Of a stretch of 40,147 bases of DNA, positions 13,610 to 39,579 are shown piece by piece (positions within the stretch are counted from its first letter, which is position 1; each line of letters opens with the position of its first letter). Made by a program: the position numbers and the translations under genes. The notes beneath the pieces were generated by a model. It was given only the letters and a program-made list of their open reading frames with translations. It was not told the origin of the DNA and did no database searches. The stretch comes from a virus, in the IMG/VR virus record IMGVR_UViG_3300044729_000316, positions 1 to 40,147 of that record; one strand, 5' to 3'.

Positions 13610-14308
13610 TTACTTGTATTCTTTTTTGTTCCACCAAAATTTCTTATAGCGGTCAAAGAATACCGTTAAAAATTTGTTCCAATCGGCTTGATGCTTTTTC
13701 TTTTCTTTTTCTCCGCCTAATTTAGAAGTCCAATTTTCACGCTTAAAAGGTATAACTTGAATAAACGGCGTTCCAGCAGGGATCATGCCTTCAAAATTGG
13801 GATCTCGTAATTTAAAAAACATGTTAAAAGGCAAAGAGTATTCATCAGTATCTACAATTCCATTGGCACAAATCATTGGCCCTGGTTCATGGTGTTGTGG
13901 TTCGCACACCAAAATTGACCAACCTTTAGGGGTTTTAATGCTCCACGGGTGAACAATTCTTACAGCGTAATTTATGTCACGCGAATAAGGGTGGTTTTGA
14001 AACTGCTCCATTGATTGAAATGCTACGGCTTCTTTTGCTCCCCATTGAAAATAAGGCGCGCCATTTATTTGCCTTACATAAATGTCATAAGGTGTTTCAA
14101 TAATGTATCCAGCGGTCATTAAATCCCATAAAGGCATGCATCTTTTGACTGTTGCAAAAGGAGTATTATCAAGAGTAGGTGCTTTTTTACCGCTAGGATC
14201 TAAATAGGCTTTAGCCTCTTTGTACCATTTTGGTATGTATTCTGTTGCAGGTTTTGGTTTTTTTAATACGCCTTCTTCATTTTCAACATCTGTAAAAATA
14301 ATTTCCAT
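13610..14308 (-). CDS. Hypothetical protein of a type known from aquatic phages
   Basis: 232 aa. Segments YIPKWYKEAKAYLDPSGKKA, TVKRCMPLWDLMTAGYIIET, RIVHPWSIKTPKGWSILVCE and PAGTPFIQVIPFKRENWTSK match in my memory a group of uncharacterised proteins common in marine and freshwater phages, but I cannot name a proven function. The position among tail fibre genes suggests a structural or morphogenetic role. GGAGG-like site before the ATG. Confidence 0.7.
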   Translation of the reverse strand: MEIIFTDVENEEGVLKKPKPATEYIPKWYKEAKAYLDPSGKKAPTLDNTPFATVKRCMPLWDLMTAGYIIETPYDIYVRQINGAPYFQWGAKEAVAFQSMEQFQNHPYSRDINYAVRIVHPWSIKTPKGWSILVCEPQHHEPGPMICANGIVDTDEYSLPFNMFFKLRDPNFEGMIPAGTPFIQVIPFKRENWTSKLGGEKEKKKHQADWNKFLTVFFDRYKKFWWNKKEYK

Positions 14309-28355: not shown

Positions 28356-28565
28356 TTACGCCTTTGCCTTTCTTGCTTTCTTTGCGTTTGTCCGCAAATC
28401 TTTTGTTGGTATTGCTGAGTGATCCGTAAGCCATGTTTTGTATGGCTCTTGTAATGTTTCATAAGAAGTGCTTTTTTTAAGCGCCGCAAACAATCGTTCA
28501 ATAGCCTCTTGATCAAGGTAGGCAACAAGTACACCCGCCTTGCGGCTTACTTCTACTTCTGTCAT
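28356..28565 (-). CDS. 69-aa basic protein
   Basis: MTEVEVSRKAGVLVAYLDQE leads to AIERLFAALKKSTSYETLQE and a Lys/Ala-rich tail (KDLRTNAKKARKAKA). ATG overlaps the stop of the MuF fusion (ATGA). A gene right after a toxin-type fusion could encode an immunity or chaperone protein; no homology shows it. Confidence 0.6.
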   Translation of the reverse strand: MTEVEVSRKAGVLVAYLDQEAIERLFAALKKSTSYETLQEPYKTWLTDHSAIPTKDLRTNAKKARKAKA

Positions 28566-30919
28566 GGCATCTCCTTAATGATTAGGGCTGTTCTATTTAA
28601 AACAATTGTGTATGTGTCAGGCACTTGCTCTCTTGTAGTCCAATTGACAACTGGATTTTTGATGCGGATTGCGTCATACCCATTAGCCGTTGCCCACATG
28701 CTTGCGCTTTCATAAAAATCTTGTGGGTAGGAGTAATACAATTCTTTTTGCGCGGGTGTCATCAATCCTGTTCTTTGGAATTCTGCTTCTATGTCCTCCA
28801 GGTATGCAATTTTTGCGCGTGGATCTAAAGCGGCTTCTACGGTTTTGCCAAACGGAATGGGGTTTCCAACTCTGTCCTCTTTAGCAAATTTAAGAGCAGT
28901 TGCAGGTGAGTCAGCAAAATAAGTACCATCACCAAACAATCCGCGTCCAATGTACGGAGTATCCCCTGTAAGCAATTGCCCTACAAATTGATCTACCTGT
29001 TCAGCGGTATCTCCTGCAACACCTCTATGCAAAGGCATTGCTCCTGAGTCCAGGGCTTTTTTGTATTCTTCCGCTGAAACAACTCTAGGCTTTCCGTTAA
29101 AACCTTGTTCATCAAGTACCTTTTTAAGATACAAGTTTTCCCCATCAGGCCGCCACGGTACGCCTTCTTCTAACTGCAAAGCCTTATCAGGCGTAAAATA
29201 ACTAGCGGGTTTTTTAGCCGCCACATAACCAATTTTAGGCCCAACCACTTCAGGAACTTTCCACCCAAACTCTTTAGCCATAGCCTGTACAAGCAAGTTA
29301 GATGTTGTGCCATTTGTCCTGTAATACTCAGTAAACATTTCAGCATAAAATTCTTTAGTGTTTTCCGCTGAGTACCCACTCTTAAACGCACCAGGGTATT
29401 CCGCTTTAAGCCGTCTAATTGCATTTGTGCGTACAGCGTCTTGCGTACCGTTTGTAATGTCATCAAGCAAATGACCCCATTCATGTGCAATGGTGTATTC
29501 AAATTGTGTAGTGGCGGGCGTTACAGGCATCTTAAAAGTACCTTGTGCAGAAGCCTTCAAATCCGCATCTTTAATAATTTTAGGCACAACCCATAAATCT
29601 GACTTACCACCGTAAGCCCACCCAAATTTACCACTAGCATCTTTTTCAATGTGTACAACAGCGCGTGTTTTAGGGTTTGTTGCTTGTAATTTTTCTACTT
29701 CTTTAATAACTAATTTGCGTTCTGCATCAGTTAATTTCAAACCTGTACTAGAAAATTGCACTTCAAGCGGGCCGTTTTTGTAGATAACCGCTTTGTCAAT
29801 AAACAATTGATCTACTTTTTTAATCCTAGAACCAAAGAATGTTCTTTCAATTTGTTCTCTAGCCATAGGGAAAATTAAGGCTCTCCCCAACGCGCTTATG
29901 GCGGCTTGTCTATTAAGAGGTTGCGGCAAAATTTCCCATTGTCCAGGTACATACGGGCGCGCATCTAATGCTTCATACATGTCTAAGGCTTCATTAAGTG
30001 AACGGCCTTCTTGCAACGCGCTAACAATTTGCTCAATTTCTTCTTTAGGTGTTCTGAAAGTAGTGGCATCAGGGCCAAAATTAACAGGAGATGGAGGAAC
30101 AACCATTGTTGCGCCTGGGATCTCAGGTTCATCTTCCATACCTGGGATTACAGGTAGCAACACGCAACGGCAATGTGGGTGTGCAGGAGGTTGAGCGTCA
30201 CCTGATGCAAATGTTTGCCCAATAACGATTACTTGCCCATCATTCTTTGCGCACACATCACACGGATCAGATACCGCCCACTCCATCTTTTGTAGGCCAG
30301 CATCTTTGTAACGCTCAATAGTTGAGAATGACATAGCGCGGTTCTGTTCAGTAATAGCGATAGTTAGGGCGCGGCTAGGGCTTGCAACATGTTGCCCAAT
30401 CATTACGGCGGCGCTCTCAGCATCTAAACCAAGTGCAATTGAGTCAGAAAGAGCAGTGCCTAAATTTACAATTGTTTCTTTGTTAAACTTTTTGAAATAA
30501 CTAGCCCCACCTGTTGATTGCAGGTAAGCCTCAAATCCTTTAGTTGGGTTTAGCAAAAGAGCAGTGGCCTTGTCTCCTGGCTTCCAGTTATCCCAATTAA
30601 CTTCAATGTCATCAGCCTTGTTTGCGCGTTCAGTTTTCTTAATCCATTCATCAGCGGCGGCCTGTCCTAAAACATAAGCCTCTGCCCATGCGCGCATGAC
30701 TGTTTGGCGTAGGGGTTCATCATTGAGATACACATTAAGGATTAACCATGAGCGGGCGCGTGTGCGATCTTGCGTGGTGTTATCCGTAGGTTGCGGTTGA
30801 GTCTCCTGGTATTTGTCAAAGACTCGTTTGAAGTCTGTTACCTGGTGCAGTGCCGCTCTAATCTTCACCGCGTTCTTTGCCGCTATGCGCCCATCTGCCT
30901 TGAGAGCGCCCTCAATCAT
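28562..30919 (-). CDS. MuF head protein fused to zincin protease and ADP-ribosyltransferase-like domain
   Basis: 785 aa in three parts. (1) Residues 1-255: MuF-type minor head protein, ending in DPCDVCAKNDGQV (C220, C223) and AHPHCRCVLLPV (H247, C250, C252). (2) About 370-550: zincin-like metalloprotease, HEWGH at 479-483 and a downstream EFYAEMFTEYY (523-533) that could give the third zinc ligand. (3) About 590-785: ADP-ribosyltransferase-like, LHRGV (R632), GRGLFGDGTYFADS (658-671) and a late TREQV (E764). MuF proteins attach inside the capsid and can be injected with DNA; the added domains look like enzymatic cargo modifying host proteins. Known MuF toxins have a similar plan. Start overlaps the portal stop. 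Confidence 0.85.
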   Translation of the reverse strand: MIEGALKADGRIAAKNAVKIRAALHQVTDFKRVFDKYQETQPQPTDNTTQDRTRARSWLILNVYLNDEPLRQTVMRAWAEAYVLGQAAADEWIKKTERANKADDIEVNWDNWKPGDKATALLLNPTKGFEAYLQSTGGASYFKKFNKETIVNLGTALSDSIALGLDAESAAVMIGQHVASPSRALTIAITEQNRAMSFSTIERYKDAGLQKMEWAVSDPCDVCAKNDGQVIVIGQTFASGDAQPPAHPHCRCVLLPVIPGMEDEPEIPGATMVVPPSPVNFGPDATTFRTPKEEIEQIVSALQEGRSLNEALDMYEALDARPYVPGQWEILPQPLNRQAAISALGRALIFPMAREQIERTFFGSRIKKVDQLFIDKAVIYKNGPLEVQFSSTGLKLTDAERKLVIKEVEKLQATNPKTRAVVHIEKDASGKFGWAYGGKSDLWVVPKIIKDADLKASAQGTFKMPVTPATTQFEYTIAHEWGHLLDDITNGTQDAVRTNAIRRLKAEYPGAFKSGYSAENTKEFYAEMFTEYYRTNGTTSNLLVQAMAKEFGWKVPEVVGPKIGYVAAKKPASYFTPDKALQLEEGVPWRPDGENLYLKKVLDEQGFNGKPRVVSAEEYKKALDSGAMPLHRGVAGDTAEQVDQFVGQLLTGDTPYIGRGLFGDGTYFADSPATALKFAKEDRVGNPIPFGKTVEAALDPRAKIAYLEDIEAEFQRTGLMTPAQKELYYSYPQDFYESASMWATANGYDAIRIKNPVVNWTTREQVPDTYTIVLNRTALIIKEMP

Positions 30920-32763
30920 GTTAGATAAGCCTTAGCCAGCGCTCGCGCAGTATCTAAATCACCATCAAAAGCACAACGGTTGAGCGCATCTCCCACAATT
31001 GGATCAAGTGACTTGAACTCAAATAATCTTGCGCGCTTACCCTTAGCCGCCCATTTCATAAATGCTTTCACTTCAGTCACTTCATCTTCTTCAGGCTTTA
31101 CCTCTGTTGAAGGTTCTTGCTCAAGAGGATTAGGAGTTGTAGGCGCATCAGGTGTTGCATCAGGGCCACTTAATGTTGGCGCAACTGAAGCGGTAGCCGC
31201 ATCAATCAATCCATCAGGTGAGAATAAATAAACAGCGCCACCGCTTACAAGAATTGGCATGTCAGCCTGTGGTGTATCAAGTAACGGCAAACCAAGTTCT
31301 GATCTGCGTTCATTTACAGACTTACCCGCAGAGCGGATTTCAATCTCATTCTTACGCGCATTTTCTTCTGTGTCTCTGCGCTCTGATGTGAGCAACTTAA
31401 ACTCAAGTTCACGCGGCATACCTAAGTATGTGTAAGAAAGATTTGTAAGTTGCTTAGAAATCCAATTAGCAAGAGGCCCAATGCCTAACGCTTCTCCATT
31501 TTCTGCTTGTCCTTCTGAGAAACCAGCCCCACCTAATCCGCCTTTTGGTGAGAAACCAATTTCCGCAGGTTGTACGCCAAAGTGTCCGCAAATAGAAGTA
31601 ACTAAATAATCATCAAGTGTGTCTTTGAACTTCTCGCCATAACCTTCATTAACAATAGGTGTAAGACCCTTTGGCAATAAGCGAGCGCGTTTGCGTTGCT
31701 CTGTCTGTCCTGCAAGATCATCATTAAGAATACGCTCATAAGCAAGCAAGAGGTCAGGGTTAGTTCCCCAATCCTCATCAGTTGTAAACATGAGTTCGGG
31801 CATTACACCATCTGTGTACTCTGCTCTGATCCATTGTTGGCGGCGCAAATAAATGTCAGCAAGTGGTAGCGCTCGCTCTACTGGGCTAAACCCGTAAACA
31901 GTTGTTGAGCGGCGATTGCGTACCATGTAAGCCAATTGATCAGATGTAAATTCACCATCTGCTTTTGGATCTTCTTCTGTTGCGGCAAACTCTGAGCGTG
32001 GGAAACCATAAAGGATCTGTTGGAACGCCGCGTTAGGTGACATTGGGCGCATACCGCGGTCATCAATAAGTGGCTTGATTGTTGAGCCATCAAGAATTTG
32101 AAAACCATAAAGATCTCCGCCTACTGTTGGCTGTGGGTAAACAGCCAGCGCATCAATTACAAGAATGTCCTCAATTGCAATGTTAATCCAGTCGTTCCAT
32201 GTGTAACCATTTGCCTTGTCAGGGTTTTCCCAAAACTCACGCAAGCGGTTGATTTCATCTGTGTACTTTTCGCGGGCTTTAGCCATAGCGCGCACATGAT
32301 CGCCGCCTGACTCTGCCGCAATTTTTTCTGATGCGTCTGAACCAAGCACAATGTCAAAATCTAAACCATTCATTTTTGCTTTAGTTACTTCAATGCAACG
32401 GCGCAAAATGTCAATGCTATCTGCCGCGTCTCGTAATGTTGAGAATGGAACTAAGCGCGTTGGAACAATGTTGATGTTCTGAGCAACCTGGTACTCATAA
32501 CGGCGTGGTTCAGGGCGGCCTGTTAATGGATTGATTGGGTTAATCGCACCAGGGATAATTGGATTGCCTGGGCCAAATGGAACTGTTGCGCTAAATGGTG
32601 CGCGTGGGAGTGCGACATTGTTGCCGTATGTCTGTTGCATTGCTAAACCGCTTTGCGCCATCAATGCGTCAGTGCCAACTGTTGTAGCACCCGCAGGCAG
32701 GTTAGGGCCTTTTTCAATGTCTTGAGTTGCTAATGCTCTTGCGATACGGTCACGCAGACCCAT
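30916..32763 (-). CDS. Portal protein
   Basis: 615 aa. Typical features: RRYEYQVAQNINIVPTRLVP, RCIEVTKAKMNGLDFDIV, an active WENPDKANGYTWNDWINIAI, GDLYGFQILDGSTIKPLIDD, VYGFSPVERALPLADIYLRR, FGVQPAEIGFSPKGGLGGAG and the C-terminal ERRSELGLPLLDTPQADMPI. The dodecameric portal is the entry for DNA and the seat of the terminase. The gene is divergent from the plus-strand cassette. Confidence 0.92.
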   Translation of the reverse strand: MGLRDRIARALATQDIEKGPNLPAGATTVGTDALMAQSGLAMQQTYGNNVALPRAPFSATVPFGPGNPIIPGAINPINPLTGRPEPRRYEYQVAQNINIVPTRLVPFSTLRDAADSIDILRRCIEVTKAKMNGLDFDIVLGSDASEKIAAESGGDHVRAMAKAREKYTDEINRLREFWENPDKANGYTWNDWINIAIEDILVIDALAVYPQPTVGGDLYGFQILDGSTIKPLIDDRGMRPMSPNAAFQQILYGFPRSEFAATEEDPKADGEFTSDQLAYMVRNRRSTTVYGFSPVERALPLADIYLRRQQWIRAEYTDGVMPELMFTTDEDWGTNPDLLLAYERILNDDLAGQTEQRKRARLLPKGLTPIVNEGYGEKFKDTLDDYLVTSICGHFGVQPAEIGFSPKGGLGGAGFSEGQAENGEALGIGPLANWISKQLTNLSYTYLGMPRELEFKLLTSERRDTEENARKNEIEIRSAGKSVNERRSELGLPLLDTPQADMPILVSGGAVYLFSPDGLIDAATASVAPTLSGPDATPDAPTTPNPLEQEPSTEVKPEEDEVTEVKAFMKWAAKGKRARLFEFKSLDPIVGDALNRCAFDGDLDTARALAKAYLT

Positions 32764-32833
32764 GCGTATCTCCCTTGTTATGCCTCTTGTAAATCAGGCG
32801 TGTTGCAATGATAGCGATTTTCTGAACATCATG

Positions 32834-32839
32834 TATTGT
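32834..32839 (+). promoter_or_regulatory. Candidate leaderless -10 box (TATTGT)
   Basis: TATTGT fits the TAnnnT core and ends 7 bases before the ATG at 32847. The AAGGA in between is too close to the ATG for a normal SD. The 83-bp gap to the portal gene holds no other clear promoter. Confidence 0.35.
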
Positions 32840-32846
32840 AAGGATT

Positions 32847-33848
32847 ATGAACTTAGTAGAGAAGGCAGTTCAACACGGTGGCAAACTTGCGCCCCTGGTG
32901 ATCCCTCACGGATTAACTAGCGGCACTGGGCTAATGAACCCATCAATTTTTATTGATGACAAAGGCAACATTCTTGTGAACTTACGCCATGTTAATTACA
33001 CGCTGTACCACGCAGAAAATGAGCAGAAGTTTCCTAGCCGATTTGGGCCACTGTCATACCTGCACCCTGAGAAGGATCGCCGCTTAGTTACGGTCAATTA
33101 CTTGTGCCGCCTCAATGATGATCTTGAGATGACTCACCACGCCAAAGTGGATACATCTGAATTAGATGTTGAACCTATTTGGGAGTTTGTGGGTGAAGAA
33201 GATTGCCGCGTAGTTCAGTGGCTAGATGATTATTACCTGGTGGGAGTGCGTAGAGACACCACAACCAACGGTGTAGGCCGTATGGAGTACAGCCGTATTG
33301 AGATTGACTGGGATAAATGGGCAGTCAAAGAGGTCAGGCGTGTGCGTATTAAAGCCCCTGCTCCAAACACTTCTTACTGTGAGAAGAATTGGATACCTGT
33401 CCTTGATAAGCCTTACCACTTTATCAAATGGACAATGCCAACAGAATTAGTTTATGCCAACCCCATCAGTGGAGAGTGTGAGCAGGTATTTCATAAGCCA
33501 ACAGCGCCAGCGCCTAAAGATCAGCGCGGATCTAGCCAGGTCATACGGTGGGGCAACATGTACATCTCAATTACCCATGAGGTTGATCTATTCAAAAATT
33601 ATCTTCAGCAAAAAGATGCCATCTACCGTCACCGCTTAGTTGTGTGGGATCAAGAATTAAATGTTGTAGGACTAAGTAAGGAATTCTCATTCTTAGATGC
33701 TCGCGTTGAGTTCTGTGTAGGTGCGGCAGTCCATAACGGCAACCTTTTGGTGTCATTTGGCTTCCAGGATAACGCCGCTTTTGTCTTGCAAGTACCTGGT
33801 GCAGTAGTGGAAGATTTAATTATGGAGGCACTGGCGTATGAAAATTGA
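32847..33848 (+). CDS. GH130-like beta-propeller, glycan-active
   Basis: 333 aa. The pattern of five-bladed propellers of the GH130/GH43/GH32 superfamily is visible: GLMNPSIFIDDKGNILVNLR near residue 28, EEDCRVVQWLDDYYLVGVRR near 117, YCEKNWIPVLDKPYHFIKW near 178, GSSQVIRWGNMYISITHE near 228 and RVEFCVGAAVHNGNLLVSFG near 287. The order and phrases (EKNW, EFCVG-A-HNG-LL-SFG) resemble mannoside phosphorylases and related enzymes found with glycosyltransferase genes. A predicted E/D catalytic residue cannot be fixed from sequence alone. First gene of the plus-strand cassette. Confidence 0.7.
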   Translation: MNLVEKAVQHGGKLAPLVIPHGLTSGTGLMNPSIFIDDKGNILVNLRHVNYTLYHAENEQKFPSRFGPLSYLHPEKDRRLVTVNYLCRLNDDLEMTHHAKVDTSELDVEPIWEFVGEEDCRVVQWLDDYYLVGVRRDTTTNGVGRMEYSRIEIDWDKWAVKEVRRVRIKAPAPNTSYCEKNWIPVLDKPYHFIKWTMPTELVYANPISGECEQVFHKPTAPAPKDQRGSSQVIRWGNMYISITHEVDLFKNYLQQKDAIYRHRLVVWDQELNVVGLSKEFSFLDARVEFCVGAAVHNGNLLVSFGFQDNAAFVLQVPGAVVEDLIMEALAYEN

Positions 33849-34401
33849 GCAATTAGTTGTAGAACTATCTAAAGATCCATTCAATCCAGCGCTCAATTTT
33901 GATGTAGCCGTTGAGTACGAGAGACAAAACCAAACAGCATCAGCCGTTTCTTTCTATTTGCGTACCGCTGAATACGGCCATGAGACACACCCCACCCTGG
34001 TTTATGCGTCACTTCTTAAAGCGGCCCATTGTTTTGATGACCAAAATGACCGCCAGGCCACTGTGAGTAACTGTTTATTGCAGGCCGTTGCTTATCTGCC
34101 ATACCGCCCTGAAGGTTATTTTCTTTTAGCGCAGTTTCATGAGCGTTTAGCGCAATGGCAGGAGTGTTACACCTGGGCAAACATTGGATTGCACAATCAT
34201 CTTCATTCACCGCTTCCTGTTCATGTGGGTTATGAAGGCAATTATGTATTGCTGTTTGAAAAGGCTGTGAGTGCCTGGTGGATAGGGCGCAAAGATGAAA
34301 GTCTTGAATTGCTCAAGCGTTTAGAACAAATGGACATTGATCCAGGGTACAAATCCGCAGTGCAACATAACCTTGAAAGGATAGGCAATGCTTCTGTTTG
34401 A
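33838..34401 (+). CDS. TPR-like protein of glycosyltransferase-tail type
   Basis: 187 aa, helical repeats (NPALNFDVAVEYERQNQTAS, AVSFYLRTAEYGHETHPTLV, RPEGYFLLAQFHERLAQWQE, YEGNYVLLFEKAVSAWWIGR). In many aquatic phage and bacterial proteins this TPR set forms the C-terminal part of glycosyltransferases; here it is a separate gene with no GT domain. GGAGG precedes the ATG, which overlaps the propeller gene by 11 bases. Probably a scaffold binding the partner enzymes. Confidence 0.65.
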   Translation: MKIEQLVVELSKDPFNPALNFDVAVEYERQNQTASAVSFYLRTAEYGHETHPTLVYASLLKAAHCFDDQNDRQATVSNCLLQAVAYLPYRPEGYFLLAQFHERLAQWQECYTWANIGLHNHLHSPLPVHVGYEGNYVLLFEKAVSAWWIGRKDESLELLKRLEQMDIDPGYKSAVQHNLERIGNASV

Positions 34402-35062
34402 TGTAGGGGCTAACCGTGGTGATGCAACACTTGCAGGATTAGAGCAGGAATACCGCGTAATAGCCTTAGAAGCCGCTCCACGCGTGTTTTCAGAGTTGGT
34501 TAAGAACTTTATCTACCACCCTGATGTTGTGCCTCTTAAAATGGCAGTTAGTGACAAAGATGGTGAACGCTTAAAGTTTTATGAAGCAGATGAAGATGGC
34601 CTTAGTTCGCTCAGCAAAGACTGGCTAACCAAAGATGGTATGCCATACAAAGGCAAGCCTCACCGTGAAGTAGAAGTAAACACAATCACCATTGACACCC
34701 TTGCAGATACATACGGCAACCCTGATTTAATCAAGATTGATGTTGAAGGTGCAGAGTGGCAAGTGATGAAAGGCATGACCCGCCATTACGGGGGCATGAT
34801 TTGCTTTGAGTGGACATTTGAAACCATGCACCAGCATGAAGATCAGTTAGATTATTTATTTACATTGGGATACAGAGAAGTAGCCGCTCAATACATTGTG
34901 AACCATTTGCAAGAGCCTGATGATTGGGGCAACATGCAATCAAACAACACCAATCAATTAAACGCCTGGCATCAACTTACATCTGATGCGTGGATAGACG
35001 GCGGTTGGAAAGTAGCCAACCTGCGCCCTACCGCAGATGTAGGTATGTTGTGGGTTAGGTAA
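34388..35062 (+). CDS. FkbM-family SAM-dependent methyltransferase
   Basis: 224 aa. LLFDVGANRGDATLAGL (SAM-binding loop, residues 2-18), VIALEAAPRVFSELVKNF (acidic residue for ribose), DLIKIDVEGAEWQVMKGM near 117 and a C-terminal ICFEWTFETMHQHEDQ are typical of FkbM enzymes, usually O-methyltransferases on sugars or polyketides. GAAAGGATAGG precedes the ATG, overlapping the TPR gene. Tail to tail with the collagen fibre (8-base overlap), so the cassette may methylate a sugar on that fibre or on host glycans. Confidence 0.85.
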   Translation: MLLFDVGANRGDATLAGLEQEYRVIALEAAPRVFSELVKNFIYHPDVVPLKMAVSDKDGERLKFYEADEDGLSSLSKDWLTKDGMPYKGKPHREVEVNTITIDTLADTYGNPDLIKIDVEGAEWQVMKGMTRHYGGMICFEWTFETMHQHEDQLDYLFTLGYREVAAQYIVNHLQEPDDWGNMQSNNTNQLNAWHQLTSDAWIDGGWKVANLRPTADVGMLWVR

Positions 35063-37616
35063 TGTCTCCCACAATTGTGAATAGGTTTGATGCTCCATTA
35101 GTACAAAGAATTGATGCGGCACTGTACTGAACGCGTAATGCAGGGCTTGCAGATCCGTTTGATGTAAATGTAACACCGCTTGCCACGATAGAAACCGCGC
35201 CTGCGCCAGTACGCTGTACATAAATAACTTGTCCAGTGCTAAATGTTCCTGAAGGAACAGTGATGTTTGCAGTACCGCTCTGCGTAACCCACTTGTTTAC
35301 ATCTCCTGCAACCAATGTGTAAGCAGTTGATTGCGCATTAAATGTAACGGTTGGAAGCGTTCCAGTAGTTCCTTGTGTACCCAAAGTTCCTTGCAAACCT
35401 TGTGTTCCAGTTAATCCCTGAAGTCCAGTTGTGCCTTGAACACCCTGAGTACCCTGTGTTCCCTGGCTACCTGTTGTTCCTTGAGTTCCAGTAGCGCCCT
35501 GAATTCCAGTAGTTCCTTGCGTTCCTTGAATACCAGTCTCACCAGTAGTTCCCTGTGTACCAGTTAAGCCTTGAGTTCCAGTAGTACCCTGAATTCCATC
35601 AAGCCCCTGAGATCCAGTTGTTCCCTGAATTCCCTCAAGCCCCTGAGTACCTTGCGTACCCGTAATTCCTTGCAGTCCAGTAATACCCTGAGTGCCATCT
35701 GTACCTTGAGTACCAGTTGTACCCTGCGCACCATTAACGCCGTCAGTACCTTGAGATCCAGTAACACCCTGCAATCCCTCAAGTCCTTGAGTGCCTTGCG
35801 TACCTTGTGTGCCAGTAATTCCCTGGCTACCAGTAACTCCTTGCAACCCTTCAGTACCTTGAGTTCCTTGCAAGCCTTCTAAGCCCTGCGCACCAGTTGT
35901 TCCCTGCGTTCCATCAAGGCCTTGAATTCCCTCTAAGCCTTGCGCGCCAGTAGTTCCTTGAATACCGTCTAAACCTTGTGATCCAGTTTGTCCTTGAGAA
36001 CCAGTTACACCCTGAACTCCTTGAGTACCCTGCAAACCTTCAACGCCTTGTGCGCCAGTTGTACCCTGCGCGCCAACAAGTCCTTGAGTTCCAGTTGTAC
36101 CTTGTAAACCTTCAGTTCCTTGAACACCCTGCAAGCCCTGAGTACCTTGCGCGCCTGTCGTACCCTGCGCACCTGTTGTTCCTTGAACACCAACGCTTTG
36201 AGTAATAAGAGAAAGTTGATCATTATTACCAAACCCTGTTGTACCTGTTCCGCTTGATGCAAGAAGTGTTACAGGAAAAGTGAAATAACTATTAGGAACA
36301 GATGAAGGTGTGCCATTTACTTGCCATTCTTGATAATTGTTAGAGTCAGTTCTATCTTGAATAAAGAAAATGTCATTATCTTTAATGTTTGCTAATAGAA
36401 AATCAATGTCCACATTGAAATCTGTTAAATGAGATACATAAATGTTTGTTGCAGAAGTTTGTGTAGCGTTATCCCACCTAATGTAACCAGCGGTAGGTGC
36501 GGGTGCTTGTGAGTTAGTATCTGCTTCATACTCAAAAATAGATGATGATGTACCGCTTGCACCAGTATTACCCTGCACACCCTGAATACCATCTAAGCCT
36601 TGAACACCCTGGCTACCAATAGTTCCCTGAACGCCTTGTGTTCCCTGCGCTCCATCTGTTCCCTGAATTCCATCAAGTCCTTGAGAACCTGTTGTGCCTT
36701 GTAAGCCAGTTAAACCCTGCGCCCCTGTTGAGCCTTGAATACCTGTTAAACCTTGTGTTCCATCAGTTCCTTGAGCGCCTATTGTTCCTTGCGCGCCCGT
36801 AGTTCCTTGAACACCAGTTAATCCTTGTGTTCCGTCATGGCCCTGAATTCCTTGTGTTCCTTGCGCACCAGTTAAACCTTGTACGCCAGTAATACCTTGA
36901 ACACCCTGCGCTCCTGTTGTTCCTTGTGAACCAGTATCGCCAACAGCGCCTTGAGATCCAGTTAAACCTTGAGATCCTGTTGTTCCTTGTGTTCCAGGAT
37001 TTCCAACATTACCAAGTAAGCCCTGCACACCCTGCGTTCCCTGTGTGCCTTGAATTCCTGTTACGCCTTGTGTACCTGTCGCGCCCTGAGTTCCGTTTGT
37101 GCCAGTTATGCCTTGCGCACCAATAGAACCTTGAATACCAAGCAAGCCCTGTGTACCAGTTGCTCCTTGTGTACCCGTAATACCTTGCGCACCATTAGTT
37201 CCTTGTACGCCAACTAAACCCTGTGTACCTGTTGCACCCTGTACGCCTTCAACTCCCTGCGCTCCTGATGTGCCTTGTGTTCCGTTAATTCCTTGAACAC
37301 CAAATGCGCCTTGAATACCAGTTTGGCCTTGAATACCTGTTGTGCCTTGTGCGCCCTGTACACCTTGCAAACCATTTGTACCTTGAACACCAGTTAGTCC
37401 TTGTGGGCCTTCTAAGCCCTGTGTTCCTTGTGCCTGATTAAATCCGCCACCTTGTAAACCTTGTGTACCTTGCGTACCTTGAGCAGAGAAGTTACCTGCA
37501 ATGCCTTGAATACCTTGAGCGCCTTGTTGCCCCATAGGGCCAGGTGTAACAACAATGACATTTGGAGTTCCAACAGGGTTTGGATTATTCAAAAAGTTAT
37601 TTGGGTTGTATGTCAT
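35055..37616 (-). CDS. Collagen-like tail fibre
   Basis: 853 aa. Residues about 27-354 and 476-752 are Gly-x-Y triplets, mostly G-[TLIVA]-Q with G-x-T also frequent and hardly any Pro; a globular insert of about 120 residues (355-474, IFEYEADTNSQAPAPTAGYI and NIYVSHLTDFNVDIDFLLAN) separates them. The last 97 residues (TVTFNAQSTAYTLVAGDVNK to RVQYSAASILCTNG...VGDIT) form a beta-type tip similar to that of 15651-16547. A triple helix is expected. The abundant Gln/Thr triplets replace Pro, as in other phage collagens. Thr in G-x-T triplets could be sugar-attachment sites. Confidence 0.88.
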   Translation of the reverse strand: MTYNPNNFLNNPNPVGTPNVIVVTPGPMGQQGAQGIQGIAGNFSAQGTQGTQGLQGGGFNQAQGTQGLEGPQGLTGVQGTNGLQGVQGAQGTTGIQGQTGIQGAFGVQGINGTQGTSGAQGVEGVQGATGTQGLVGVQGTNGAQGITGTQGATGTQGLLGIQGSIGAQGITGTNGTQGATGTQGVTGIQGTQGTQGVQGLLGNVGNPGTQGTTGSQGLTGSQGAVGDTGSQGTTGAQGVQGITGVQGLTGAQGTQGIQGHDGTQGLTGVQGTTGAQGTIGAQGTDGTQGLTGIQGSTGAQGLTGLQGTTGSQGLDGIQGTDGAQGTQGVQGTIGSQGVQGLDGIQGVQGNTGASGTSSSIFEYEADTNSQAPAPTAGYIRWDNATQTSATNIYVSHLTDFNVDIDFLLANIKDNDIFFIQDRTDSNNYQEWQVNGTPSSVPNSYFTFPVTLLASSGTGTTGFGNNDQLSLITQSVGVQGTTGAQGTTGAQGTQGLQGVQGTEGLQGTTGTQGLVGAQGTTGAQGVEGLQGTQGVQGVTGSQGQTGSQGLDGIQGTTGAQGLEGIQGLDGTQGTTGAQGLEGLQGTQGTEGLQGVTGSQGITGTQGTQGTQGLEGLQGVTGSQGTDGVNGAQGTTGTQGTDGTQGITGLQGITGTQGTQGLEGIQGTTGSQGLDGIQGTTGTQGLTGTQGTTGETGIQGTQGTTGIQGATGTQGTTGSQGTQGTQGVQGTTGLQGLTGTQGLQGTLGTQGTTGTLPTVTFNAQSTAYTLVAGDVNKWVTQSGTANITVPSGTFSTGQVIYVQRTGAGAVSIVASGVTFTSNGSASPALRVQYSAASILCTNGASNLFTIVGDIT

Positions 37617-38158
37617 CTTGTCACCTCTGCGTTTACATTTAATTCACCCTGAACAAGTCGTGTTTTCACACCAGTAGGTGATGTTATCTCTAAATCATAA
37701 TAATAAGGGCCTGCAATTATTGCGCCTGTTTGTGCCGCTGTTGCGCGAACTGCAAGAGTTCCGCTAGGCCCATCAATTGTAATGCCACTTGTCTCTGTAA
37801 GCGTTAAAACTGCAACGGTGTCATTAGGTAGCGAGCGCAACTGCATACGGGCTGTGTAACCTGTAATGTCCACTGCGCTTAATGCATCTCCGCCTTGAAT
37901 GTACAAACCAGTAGCCGCATTAGTAACGGTAAATTGTGTTGAAGTGCGAGAAGCAATTGTCACATTACCTAAATTGTATTGGCTAGGCAAAATGCCTTCA
38001 ATGTAAACAGTCTGCCCTGCGCTAAATCCGTTTTCTGCGGTGTATGTAATAGTTGTACCGTTGCCTACTGCGTTTGTAATCGTTGCAGGCTGTGTGTACA
38101 AGAAATTGCGAAACCAATCAGAGCCTTGATCAATTATTGTGTTGTAATTGTCAGCCAT
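37613..38158 (-). CDS. BppU-like N-terminal fibre/base protein
   Basis: 181 aa. The text around IDQGSDWFRNFLYT, DITGYTARMQLRSLPNDTVA and GPYYYDLEITSPTGVKTRLV matches the widespread phage domain found in baseplate upper (BppU) and fibre-associated proteins; the ending VNAEVTR is usual. A Thr/Gly-rich beta insert (TITYTAENGFSAGQTVYIEG) interrupts it at about residues 25-90. It is upstream of the collagen fibre (4-base overlap) and probably anchors it. Confidence 0.7.
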   Translation of the reverse strand: MADNYNTIIDQGSDWFRNFLYTQPATITNAVGNGTTITYTAENGFSAGQTVYIEGILPSQYNLGNVTIASRTSTQFTVTNAATGLYIQGGDALSAVDITGYTARMQLRSLPNDTVAVLTLTETSGITIDGPSGTLAVRATAAQTGAIIAGPYYYDLEITSPTGVKTRLVQGELNVNAEVTR

Positions 38159-39579
38159 TACGCTCCTTGTGCCACCTCAGAATTTGTCACAATCATAGCG
38201 CTTCTACACGCTGAACAATGTGTAAATGATTTAGGCATAGGCAAGCCACACTTAGGGCAATGATTAGCGATAGCGTTAAAGTAATTACTAACCGTAACCT
38301 TTCCTAATAAATCGCTAAAACCCTGCACCATTGCATCAATACGGTCAGGTGAATTAGGTTCATCAACTGTCCAGGTACACATCTGATCTTCTAACTCTGC
38401 AAACTCGCCAATGTGGTGAATACGCCCCTGCTCATACATAGCCGCTACTGGTTCTGCTCTGAGTTTCTTACCTATGTGCGCTCGCACTTCTCTAATTGGC
38501 AAGGTAGGCCGTACTTGCTTTAGCACTGCGCCCACCATGTCACCGCCCTGGTTTACTTCCACCAAAACTGCATCTGCTTTGTAAGAGTCAAACAGTTCCA
38601 CCGCCTTTGTAGCCCACTGCAACGGTGAACCTCTGAATGAGTAATCACCAAGCACATAGCCCTGGCCATCTGAAGTAGATCCAACAACAACAATGCCTGT
38701 TTCATCTGACTTCTCTGAGTTAGTTACGGCAGGATCAACGCTTACAACAATGCGGGCCATAGTTGGGGCTGTTGCAATCCGTGTGCGATCAATTAAGCCT
38801 CTAGTCCATAACGCGCCTTCGACATCATCAAGGATTTCTCCATAAAGTTCTTGCCTACCTAATCGTGTGCCGTTGTAGCGGGCTTGTAATTCCATCAATG
38901 CGCTAGGGGCTAGGTTTGCGGCGTTATCAAATGTAGATCCCCTGGTAATAACTACTGATCCATCTGTACGGCCTGCAAGCATGCGTATCAGGGCCGTAGA
39001 ACGCGGTGTGGTGGTAACAATGACTCGCGGTTTTTTACCCAGGCGTAGGCCAAACTGCAACTGATCCCAGGCATCTTGATAGCGCCATGCACCTAACTCA
39101 TCACACCAAGCACCGTGATGCTGTGGGCCGCGGAAACGCTCAGGGTTATCTGCGCTGAATAGTTTTATGCGGCTACCGTTTTTAAGCAGGATCTCGCCAA
39201 TAGAACGGTTGTAATTCTGAAGCATTTGGTAACGCTGAAGTATTGCAACAATGCCTGACTCACCCTCTGCACATGTATCTCTTGCATCTGAGAATGTAGG
39301 AGCAACAACTGCCCAACGCGTAGCGGGTTGAATGATTGCTTGCCAGGCTATTTCTTCTGCGCCTAATCTTGTCTTGCCAAATCCACGGCCTGCCATTGCA
39401 AGCCAAATGTTCCAATCACCTTCAGGCGGTAGTTGTTCCTTCCGCGCCAGTTTGTTCTTCCATACCCAGCGGCTCGCCTTGATCCGTGAGTTCTGTGATG
39501 GTTGCAACCCCTCCAATTGTTGAGGCTTCAATAATTCTTGCGACTCGCTCAACTTCTCTGTCCAGGTCTGATCCGTCAT
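38158..39579 (-). CDS. terL: Large terminase subunit with C-terminal zinc ribbon
   Basis: 473 aa. Walker A GRGFGKT at 64-70, Walker B HHGAWCDELGAW (D160, E161), coupling TTTP near 190, and RNase H-like nuclease D282 in VVSVDPAVTNSEKSDETGI. The C-terminus adds HCPKCGLPMPKSFTHCSACR, a zinc ribbon (C441, C444, C455, C458) not usual in terminases. The start at 39579 (AGAGGTGG upstream) overlaps the small subunit gene by 158 bases; no later ATG fits before Walker A. Confidence 0.93.
   Translation of the reverse strand: MTDQTWTEKLSESQELLKPQQLEGLQPSQNSRIKASRWVWKNKLARKEQLPPEGDWNIWLAMAGRGFGKTRLGAEEIAWQAIIQPATRWAVVAPTFSDARDTCAEGESGIVAILQRYQMLQNYNRSIGEILLKNGSRIKLFSADNPERFRGPQHHGAWCDELGAWRYQDAWDQLQFGLRLGKKPRVIVTTTPRSTALIRMLAGRTDGSVVITRGSTFDNAANLAPSALMELQARYNGTRLGRQELYGEILDDVEGALWTRGLIDRTRIATAPTMARIVVSVDPAVTNSEKSDETGIVVVGSTSDGQGYVLGDYSFRGSPLQWATKAVELFDSYKADAVLVEVNQGGDMVGAVLKQVRPTLPIREVRAHIGKKLRAEPVAAMYEQGRIHHIGEFAELEDQMCTWTVDEPNSPDRIDAMVQGFSDLLGKVTVSNYFNAIANHCPKCGLPMPKSFTHCSACRSAMIVTNSEVAQGA

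Follow-up and report, generated by a model that had tools for sequence, protein, structure and literature searches.

A propeller–TPR–methyltransferase gene cassette beside a collagen-like fibre gene in a freshwater phage, plausibly a fibre-glycosylation machine

The locus and its three genes

The window analysed here is the whole of a linear, 40,147-base virus contig (IMG/VR record IMGVR_UViG_3300044729_000316) from a freshwater phage. Near full-length relatives measure 37–41 kb, so the contig is probably near complete. The relatives of its portal and terminase large subunit (terL) are distant, and its resemblance to Nanopelagicales phages (PMC10202952) in size and GC is only a suggestive hint on the host. 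Between the portal and collagen-like fibre genes lie three overlapping plus-strand open reading frames encoding a propeller, a tetratricopeptide repeat (TPR) protein and an FkbM-family methyltransferase of 333, 187 and 224 amino acids, while portal, fibre, terL and the remaining structural genes are all on the minus strand. The coordinates and opposed orientation described in an initial annotation of this DNA agree exactly with the ORF calls. Successive cassette genes overlap by 11 and 14 bases, each start lying within the end of the preceding gene. To the left, the portal gene starts 83 bases from the propeller gene on the opposite strand; to the right, the fibre gene runs towards the FkbM gene and their ends overlap by 8 bases. 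The features of the locus are as follows.

30916–32763, minus strand: portal, left flank and one anchor of the unbiased test described below (Pfam/PHROG)
32764–32846, no strand: divergent intergenic stretch of 83 bases; AAGGAT precedes the propeller ATG
32847–33848, plus strand: GH130/GT108-fold five-bladed beta-propeller, 333 aa, putative glycosyl-transferring enzyme (AlphaFold, Foldseek, conserved residues)
33838–34401, plus strand: TPR superhelix protein, 187 aa, putative substrate-docking subunit (predicted fold; fusions in relatives)
34388–35062, plus strand: FkbM-family (PF05050) SAM methyltransferase, 224 aa, putative sugar O-methyltransferase (Pfam, motifs)
35055–37616, minus strand: collagen-like fibre, 853 aa, proposed substrate (two Gly-X-Y stretches; Pfam/PHROG; co-inheritance)
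37613–38158, minus strand: phrog_1084-type protein between fibre and terminase (weak match, L-shaped tail fibre assembly)
38158–39579, minus strand: terminase large subunit, right anchor of the unbiased test (Pfam/PHROG)

Compared with relatives, all three cassette genes have dN/dS values of 0.03–0.16; this purifying selection marks them as real genes rather than chance frames. Scans for promoters and terminators yielded no more than shuffled sequence did, and the 83-base divergent stretch held no better-than-chance promoter. Elsewhere in the window, a MuF-type head protein of 785 aa (28562–30919, minus strand) has a long C-terminal extension with weak matches to the metalloprotease-type PF07737 (below cut-off) and to a PARP-type domain (E 0.11). 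Its length (about 250 to 820 aa) and identity differ strongly from one relative to another, like those of MuF proteins with exchangeable effector tails. A DUF6065 protein (13610–14308, minus strand; E 3.3e-8) adjoins a Gly-rich/FN3 protein in the minor-tail region.

Alone, the window propeller has no match in Pfam or PHROG. Its phmmer match in the PDB was dismissed as a chance match, and a propeller profile search was set aside, its weak GH130 matches being mixed with repeat matches to PLL lectins. When modelled by AlphaFold with 84 relatives, the protein forms a five-bladed propeller (pLDDT 91.7, pTM 0.90), for which the top Foldseek matches in the PDB are all GH130/GT108 (E 2e-8), namely GH130 mannoside phosphorylases, the mannoside synthase Uhgb_MS and the Leishmania GT108 mannosyltransferases (6q4w/6q4x/6q50). 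The GH130-like propeller first suggested is thus borne out, with a fold of mannoside-phosphorylase/mannosyltransferase type; the likeness to GT108, a family that transfers mannose from GDP-Man and/or mannose 1-phosphate, is one of fold. It shares with GH130 beta-mannoside phosphorylases and mannosidases and with the Leishmania GT108 mannosyltransferase-phosphorylases the five blades, the position of an ED-x-R motif, an Arg, a His, a Gly and a C-terminal Asp, but differs in sequence (10–15% identity, TM about 0.5–0.6), in having Cys or Ala for the Pro of EDPR, in being almost exclusively viral and in its near-constant TPR partner. Seventeen of 36 propeller relatives match PF04041 (GH130) weakly (best E 1.3e-4); the window protein itself does not match and misses the curated Pfam cut-off, and it is therefore filed only as sharing the GH130 fold.

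Conserved residues point in the same direction. Invariant across the 84 relatives are R47, E118, D119, R145, E179-K180-N181-W182, R227, H244, Y260 and E288, with R121 kept in at least 90%. Profile comparison with 21 bacterial GH130 proteins (E 3e-5, probability 73%) aligns conserved GH130 positions with N31-P32, R47, E118-D119-x-R121, H244, G292 and D308, an alignment that backs kinship without being conclusive alone. Between the motifs it is too weak for the invariant R145, K180, R227 and H244 to be given roles such as those of the three basic phosphate-binding residues of phosphorylases, or for the paired Glu of hydrolases to be placed. Activity of BT3780 depends on the ED pair and D363, and the Asp of the pair is invariant in GH130 (PMC4599007); D119 and D308 of the propeller may be the equivalents of these essential residues. 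GH130/GT108 reactions are reversible (PMC8950772), so the fold cannot settle the reaction direction, and sequence cannot tell a phosphorylase from a transferase or from an enzyme that is both.

The closest folds overall are viral, headed by an uncultured phage protein (TMq 0.80). Giant-virus proteins (Pithovirus-like, Solivirus, Indivirus and Satyrvirus) follow at TMq 0.65–0.78, the Pithovirus-like ones at 0.73–0.78, and differ from the phage propeller in sequence (12–22% identity). Several seem to lie within longer proteins that carry the names of glycan enzymes (alpha-1,3-fucosyltransferase, LicD-type nucleotidyltransferase, WcaK-like pyruvyl transferase). No solved GH130 enzyme comes as near to the phage propeller in fold as do the giant-virus BFVD models A0A481Z9G3, A0A3G5AFP7, A0A1V0SDN7 and A0A3G5AG18.

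The TPR protein is weak in Pfam (best 1.3e-4), and its predicted structure is an unambiguous TPR superhelix of ten helices (mean pLDDT 96.4) matching designed TPRs, the TPR part of O-GlcNAc transferase (OGT), MamA and GmaR. The resemblance to glycosyltransferase tails noted at first sight therefore holds as a superhelix of OGT/GmaR shape. TPRs dock substrates in protein glycosyltransferases. The window protein has the superhelix shape of O-GlcNAc transferase, GmaR and SPY, and relatives join it to GT2/GT17 or FkbM; unlike those enzymes, it is a separate 187-aa protein whose catalytic partner is the propeller. The third gene product matches FkbM (PF05050) with E 4.8e-17 and 63 bits against a cut-off of 22.7. 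Its FD-x-GANRGD (SAM) motif is intact and KIDVEGAEW is conserved, making it a putative sugar O-methyltransferase. The window cassette was correctly described as having no glycosyltransferase catalytic domain.

Co-inheritance of cassette and fibre

Choosing only loci that hold the cassette had to be avoided, and so loci were fetched by the portal and terminase of the window and the interval between these anchors was read. A long collagen fibre was taken as at least 300 residues of Gly-X-Y in this count, and as 200 residues for the portal tree. Among 72 distinct phages with both anchors, cassette and long fibre occur together in 13 and are both absent from 59, with no exceptions; four of the 59 carry short collagen stretches. 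On a portal tree of 58 phages, from which three early-ending contigs were left out, 18 have both, 40 have neither and none is discordant. Cassette and fibre change together there on all five occasions, for which a sign test gives p 0.0625 at best. The link between cassette and fibre that had been proposed is therefore strict within the phage lineage of the window. The pair is also kept in two loci (L041 and L043; L numbers are our locus handles) in which the orientation of the cassette relative to the structural genes is reversed. No propeller was found elsewhere in 10 near full-length relatives lacking the cassette. Joint transfer of neighbouring genes that do not act on one another remains an alternative cause of this co-inheritance.

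In the cassette-less relatives, the slot between terL and portal holds nothing or a protein of 458–498 aa. This modular protein (L368 5527–6981, L381 5466–6962, L363 5586–6962) has PHROG matches to virion-structural, head-decoration and tail-fibre families and a conserved N-terminus, MARKFLVSIDLNKNELQNAV.

The portal, head and terminase of the lineage persist while cassette and fibre come and go jointly, which bears on whether the cassette instead modifies another virion protein and the fibre is merely linked. This we consider distinctly unlikely, even with the cassette lying beside spikes, baseplate and other virion genes in other phage lineages and with sugar reported on the capsid and tail-tube subunits of mycobacteriophages (Freeman 2023, as cited in PMC12619734). 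Given the latter report, virion glycosylation as such is not new.

Beyond the lineage, the fibre is an inconstant neighbour. Among loci outside it, a collagen-like gene is found in about 36–38% at 1.5–4 kb downstream and in 9–19% beyond 4.5 kb, and the upstream neighbours include spike, fibre, baseplate and unrelated genes. At so low a share, collagen is not the general substrate. Conversely, collagen fibres need no propeller in general, since only 3 of 50,697 named phage records hold one although collagen-like tail proteins are spread over dozens of PHROG families. (Named records label the propeller 'MGP protein' or 'beta-mannosyltransferase'.) The cassette thus often sits beside tail-adhesion genes, and strict collagen pairing is a property of the window lineage. 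Two points raised in the initial annotation are answered in part: the cassette is widespread in aquatic phages, as in the comparable locus of cyanophage DSL-LC02, with a fibre neighbour that is inconstant outside the lineage; and many cassettes there have different tail genes as neighbours and no collagen nearby, which is half of what was named beforehand as refuting the link, while the lineage pairing itself is strict.

Composition of the fibre is a separate matter. Its two Gly-X-Y stretches comprise 197 triplets, in which Gln fills 107 of the Y positions (G-x-Q, 54%) against 47 for Thr (G-x-T, 24%), and Thr is commonest at X (68). The fibre had been called Gly-x-Thr-rich; these counts contradict that, and the argument from G-x-T is weak. 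On Bacillus spores, glycosylation of the BclA type concerns a collagen-like filament and involves a rhamnose/anthrose-type gene set. The phage fibre shares with BclA the collagen-like filament, with Thr-rich repeats as a possible acceptor, but, unlike it, has G-x-Q repeats, Thr mostly in X and no gene set of that type. A BclA-like G-x-T composition, and with it the comparison with BclA, is not supported by the triplet counts.

Modular relatives and the reaction they suggest

One scan of viral contigs returned at least 593 propeller relatives, and further scans were also made, of which the one with a divergent propeller gave four loci. A profile scan of 84,980 prokaryote genomes gave five matches. 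Two of these were checked and are phage contigs judging by their neighbours: portal, endolysin and ribonucleotide reductase genes near L277, and tail-sheath stabiliser and head-tail adaptor genes near L279. Gene order is near-invariable. Among 189 distinct propeller loci, 185 have a readable next gene, and in 172 of these the same TPR is directly downstream or fused; many of the loci are close relatives, so the 172 are not independent cases. What follows the TPR varies: FkbM, Methyltransf_24, GT2 (the largest cluster, 48 genes), GT17, CTP-transferase/mannose-6-phosphate-isomerase or ATP-grasp. Relatives' cassettes hold GT2, GT17, GT25-like, WavE and mannose-phosphate isomerase/CTP-transferase genes, in keeping with the sugar-active setting originally proposed, and relatives add or fuse SPASM radical-SAM, DUF6445 and methyltransferase modules.

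Fusions join the propeller to FkbM (L236), to GT17 and Methyltransf_24 (L211) and to FkbM and SPASM radical SAM (L259). The TPR is fused to FkbM in L181, and long proteins join it with GT2/WavE/GT25-like or GT17 domains (L253, L264). The T4-like cyanophage DSL-LC02 has the order collagen-like (minus), propeller (plus), TPR-FkbM-radical SAM (plus), DUF6445 (plus), tail fibre (minus). Two side observations can be added. L236 (8323–9900), like L235, has an additional propeller within its cassette, a divergent one with about 29% identity that is fused directly to FkbM; and in cyanophage loci L002 (8959–11702) and L001 (8962–10827) the TPR is fused to FkbM-like, SPASM radical-SAM or DUF6445 domains. 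The isolate Synechococcus phage S-SCSM2R likewise has a propeller together with a TPR-DUF6445 gene.

The fusions of the propeller with FkbM, GT17 and radical SAM, together with its glycosyltransferase company, make synthesis (transfer and methylation) likelier than trimming. The initial annotation had included phosphorolysis and trimming among the roles of the cassette, and these features of the relatives speak against that. A catabolic version, in which the propeller phosphorolyses beta-mannosides as an auxiliary metabolic or glycan-cutting gene, would fit the fact that most of its solved structural relatives are phosphorylases; we regard it as improbable, as no uptake or sugar-metabolism genes adjoin the propeller and its constant partners are the TPR and a methyltransferase.

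Proposed function and its meaning

The cassette is real, conserved and widespread, and is plausibly a fibre-glycosylation machine that probably adds a methylated sugar to the collagen-like fibre. We tentatively favour, at a little short of even confidence, the reading that the three genes encode one virion-decoration machine acting on that fibre. The propeller, working like GT108/GH130 enzymes in the synthetic direction, would transfer a mannose-type sugar, with a sugar 1-phosphate or nucleotide sugar as donor; its acceptor would be either the fibre itself or a glycan on the fibre that the host has begun. Larger cassettes include further glycosyltransferases and the minimal one does not, and the propeller is therefore proposed as the transferrer or extender of the sugar. 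The TPR superhelix would dock the fibre, and the FkbM enzyme would O-methylate the added sugar as a cap. The resulting fibre, with a methyl-capped glycan, could differ in receptor binding, in resistance to proteases or in how it is recognised. Larger relatives with GT2, GT17, SPASM radical-SAM and DUF6445 modules may build other glycans on the same propeller–TPR core.

Alternatively, the cassette could glycosylate or methylate a host surface polysaccharide, blocking superinfection or the sticking of virions to debris. Glycan genes in the tail-fibre regions of pelagimyophages have been read in this way (PMC7029224), relatives' cassettes hold LPS-type enzymes (WavE, GT25-like, GT17, CTP-transferase), and a Nol-like carbamoyltransferase adjoins the cassette in one locus. 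Such remodelling would likewise have the cassette inherited along with a receptor-binding module, since the fibre has to fit the altered receptor. We nevertheless consider it rather unlikely: the constant partner, whether a free protein or a fused domain, is a TPR for docking, a feature shared with protein-modifying enzymes; among the genes of the window cassette no sugar enzyme of membrane or undecaprenyl-linked type was seen; and the cassette tracks the long collagen stretch in every one of the five changes. Phage glycosyltransferases are also frequently explained by DNA glycosylation. Here this is very improbable, as the scanned window genes include none recognisable as a base-modification gene and tracking of fibre type would not be expected of it.

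Phage glycan cassettes are already known, and the propeller–TPR core is the variant here. The glycan genes of pelagimyophages and Nanopelagicales phages are sited in the same way by tail fibres and collagen-like proteins, and have been read as modifiers of the host surface or of DNA (PMC7029224, PMC10202952). Searches of the open-access literature for GH130 or FkbM in phages turned up no account of a propeller–TPR–FkbM module. On a wider scale, and more doubtfully than for the fibre-directed machine itself, a virus-specific branch of the GH130/GT108 fold, spanning aquatic phages and giant viruses, might be the catalytic core of a modular fibre glycosylation in which the propeller transfers the sugar, the TPR picks the fibre and exchangeable modules such as FkbM, GT2/GT17, radical SAM and DUF6445 set the glycan.

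If fibre glycosylation by this cassette is true, very many aquatic phages glycosylate their own fibres with a type of enzyme so far associated chiefly with mannoside phosphorolysis and mannan storage. The collagen-like fibre would offer a concrete, testable substrate, and its modification would give a reason for the modular variation seen at fibre loci. The decoration of virion proteins in phages and in giant viruses would be linked, and care would have to be taken before tail-fibre glycan genes are read by default as modifiers of host LPS or DNA.
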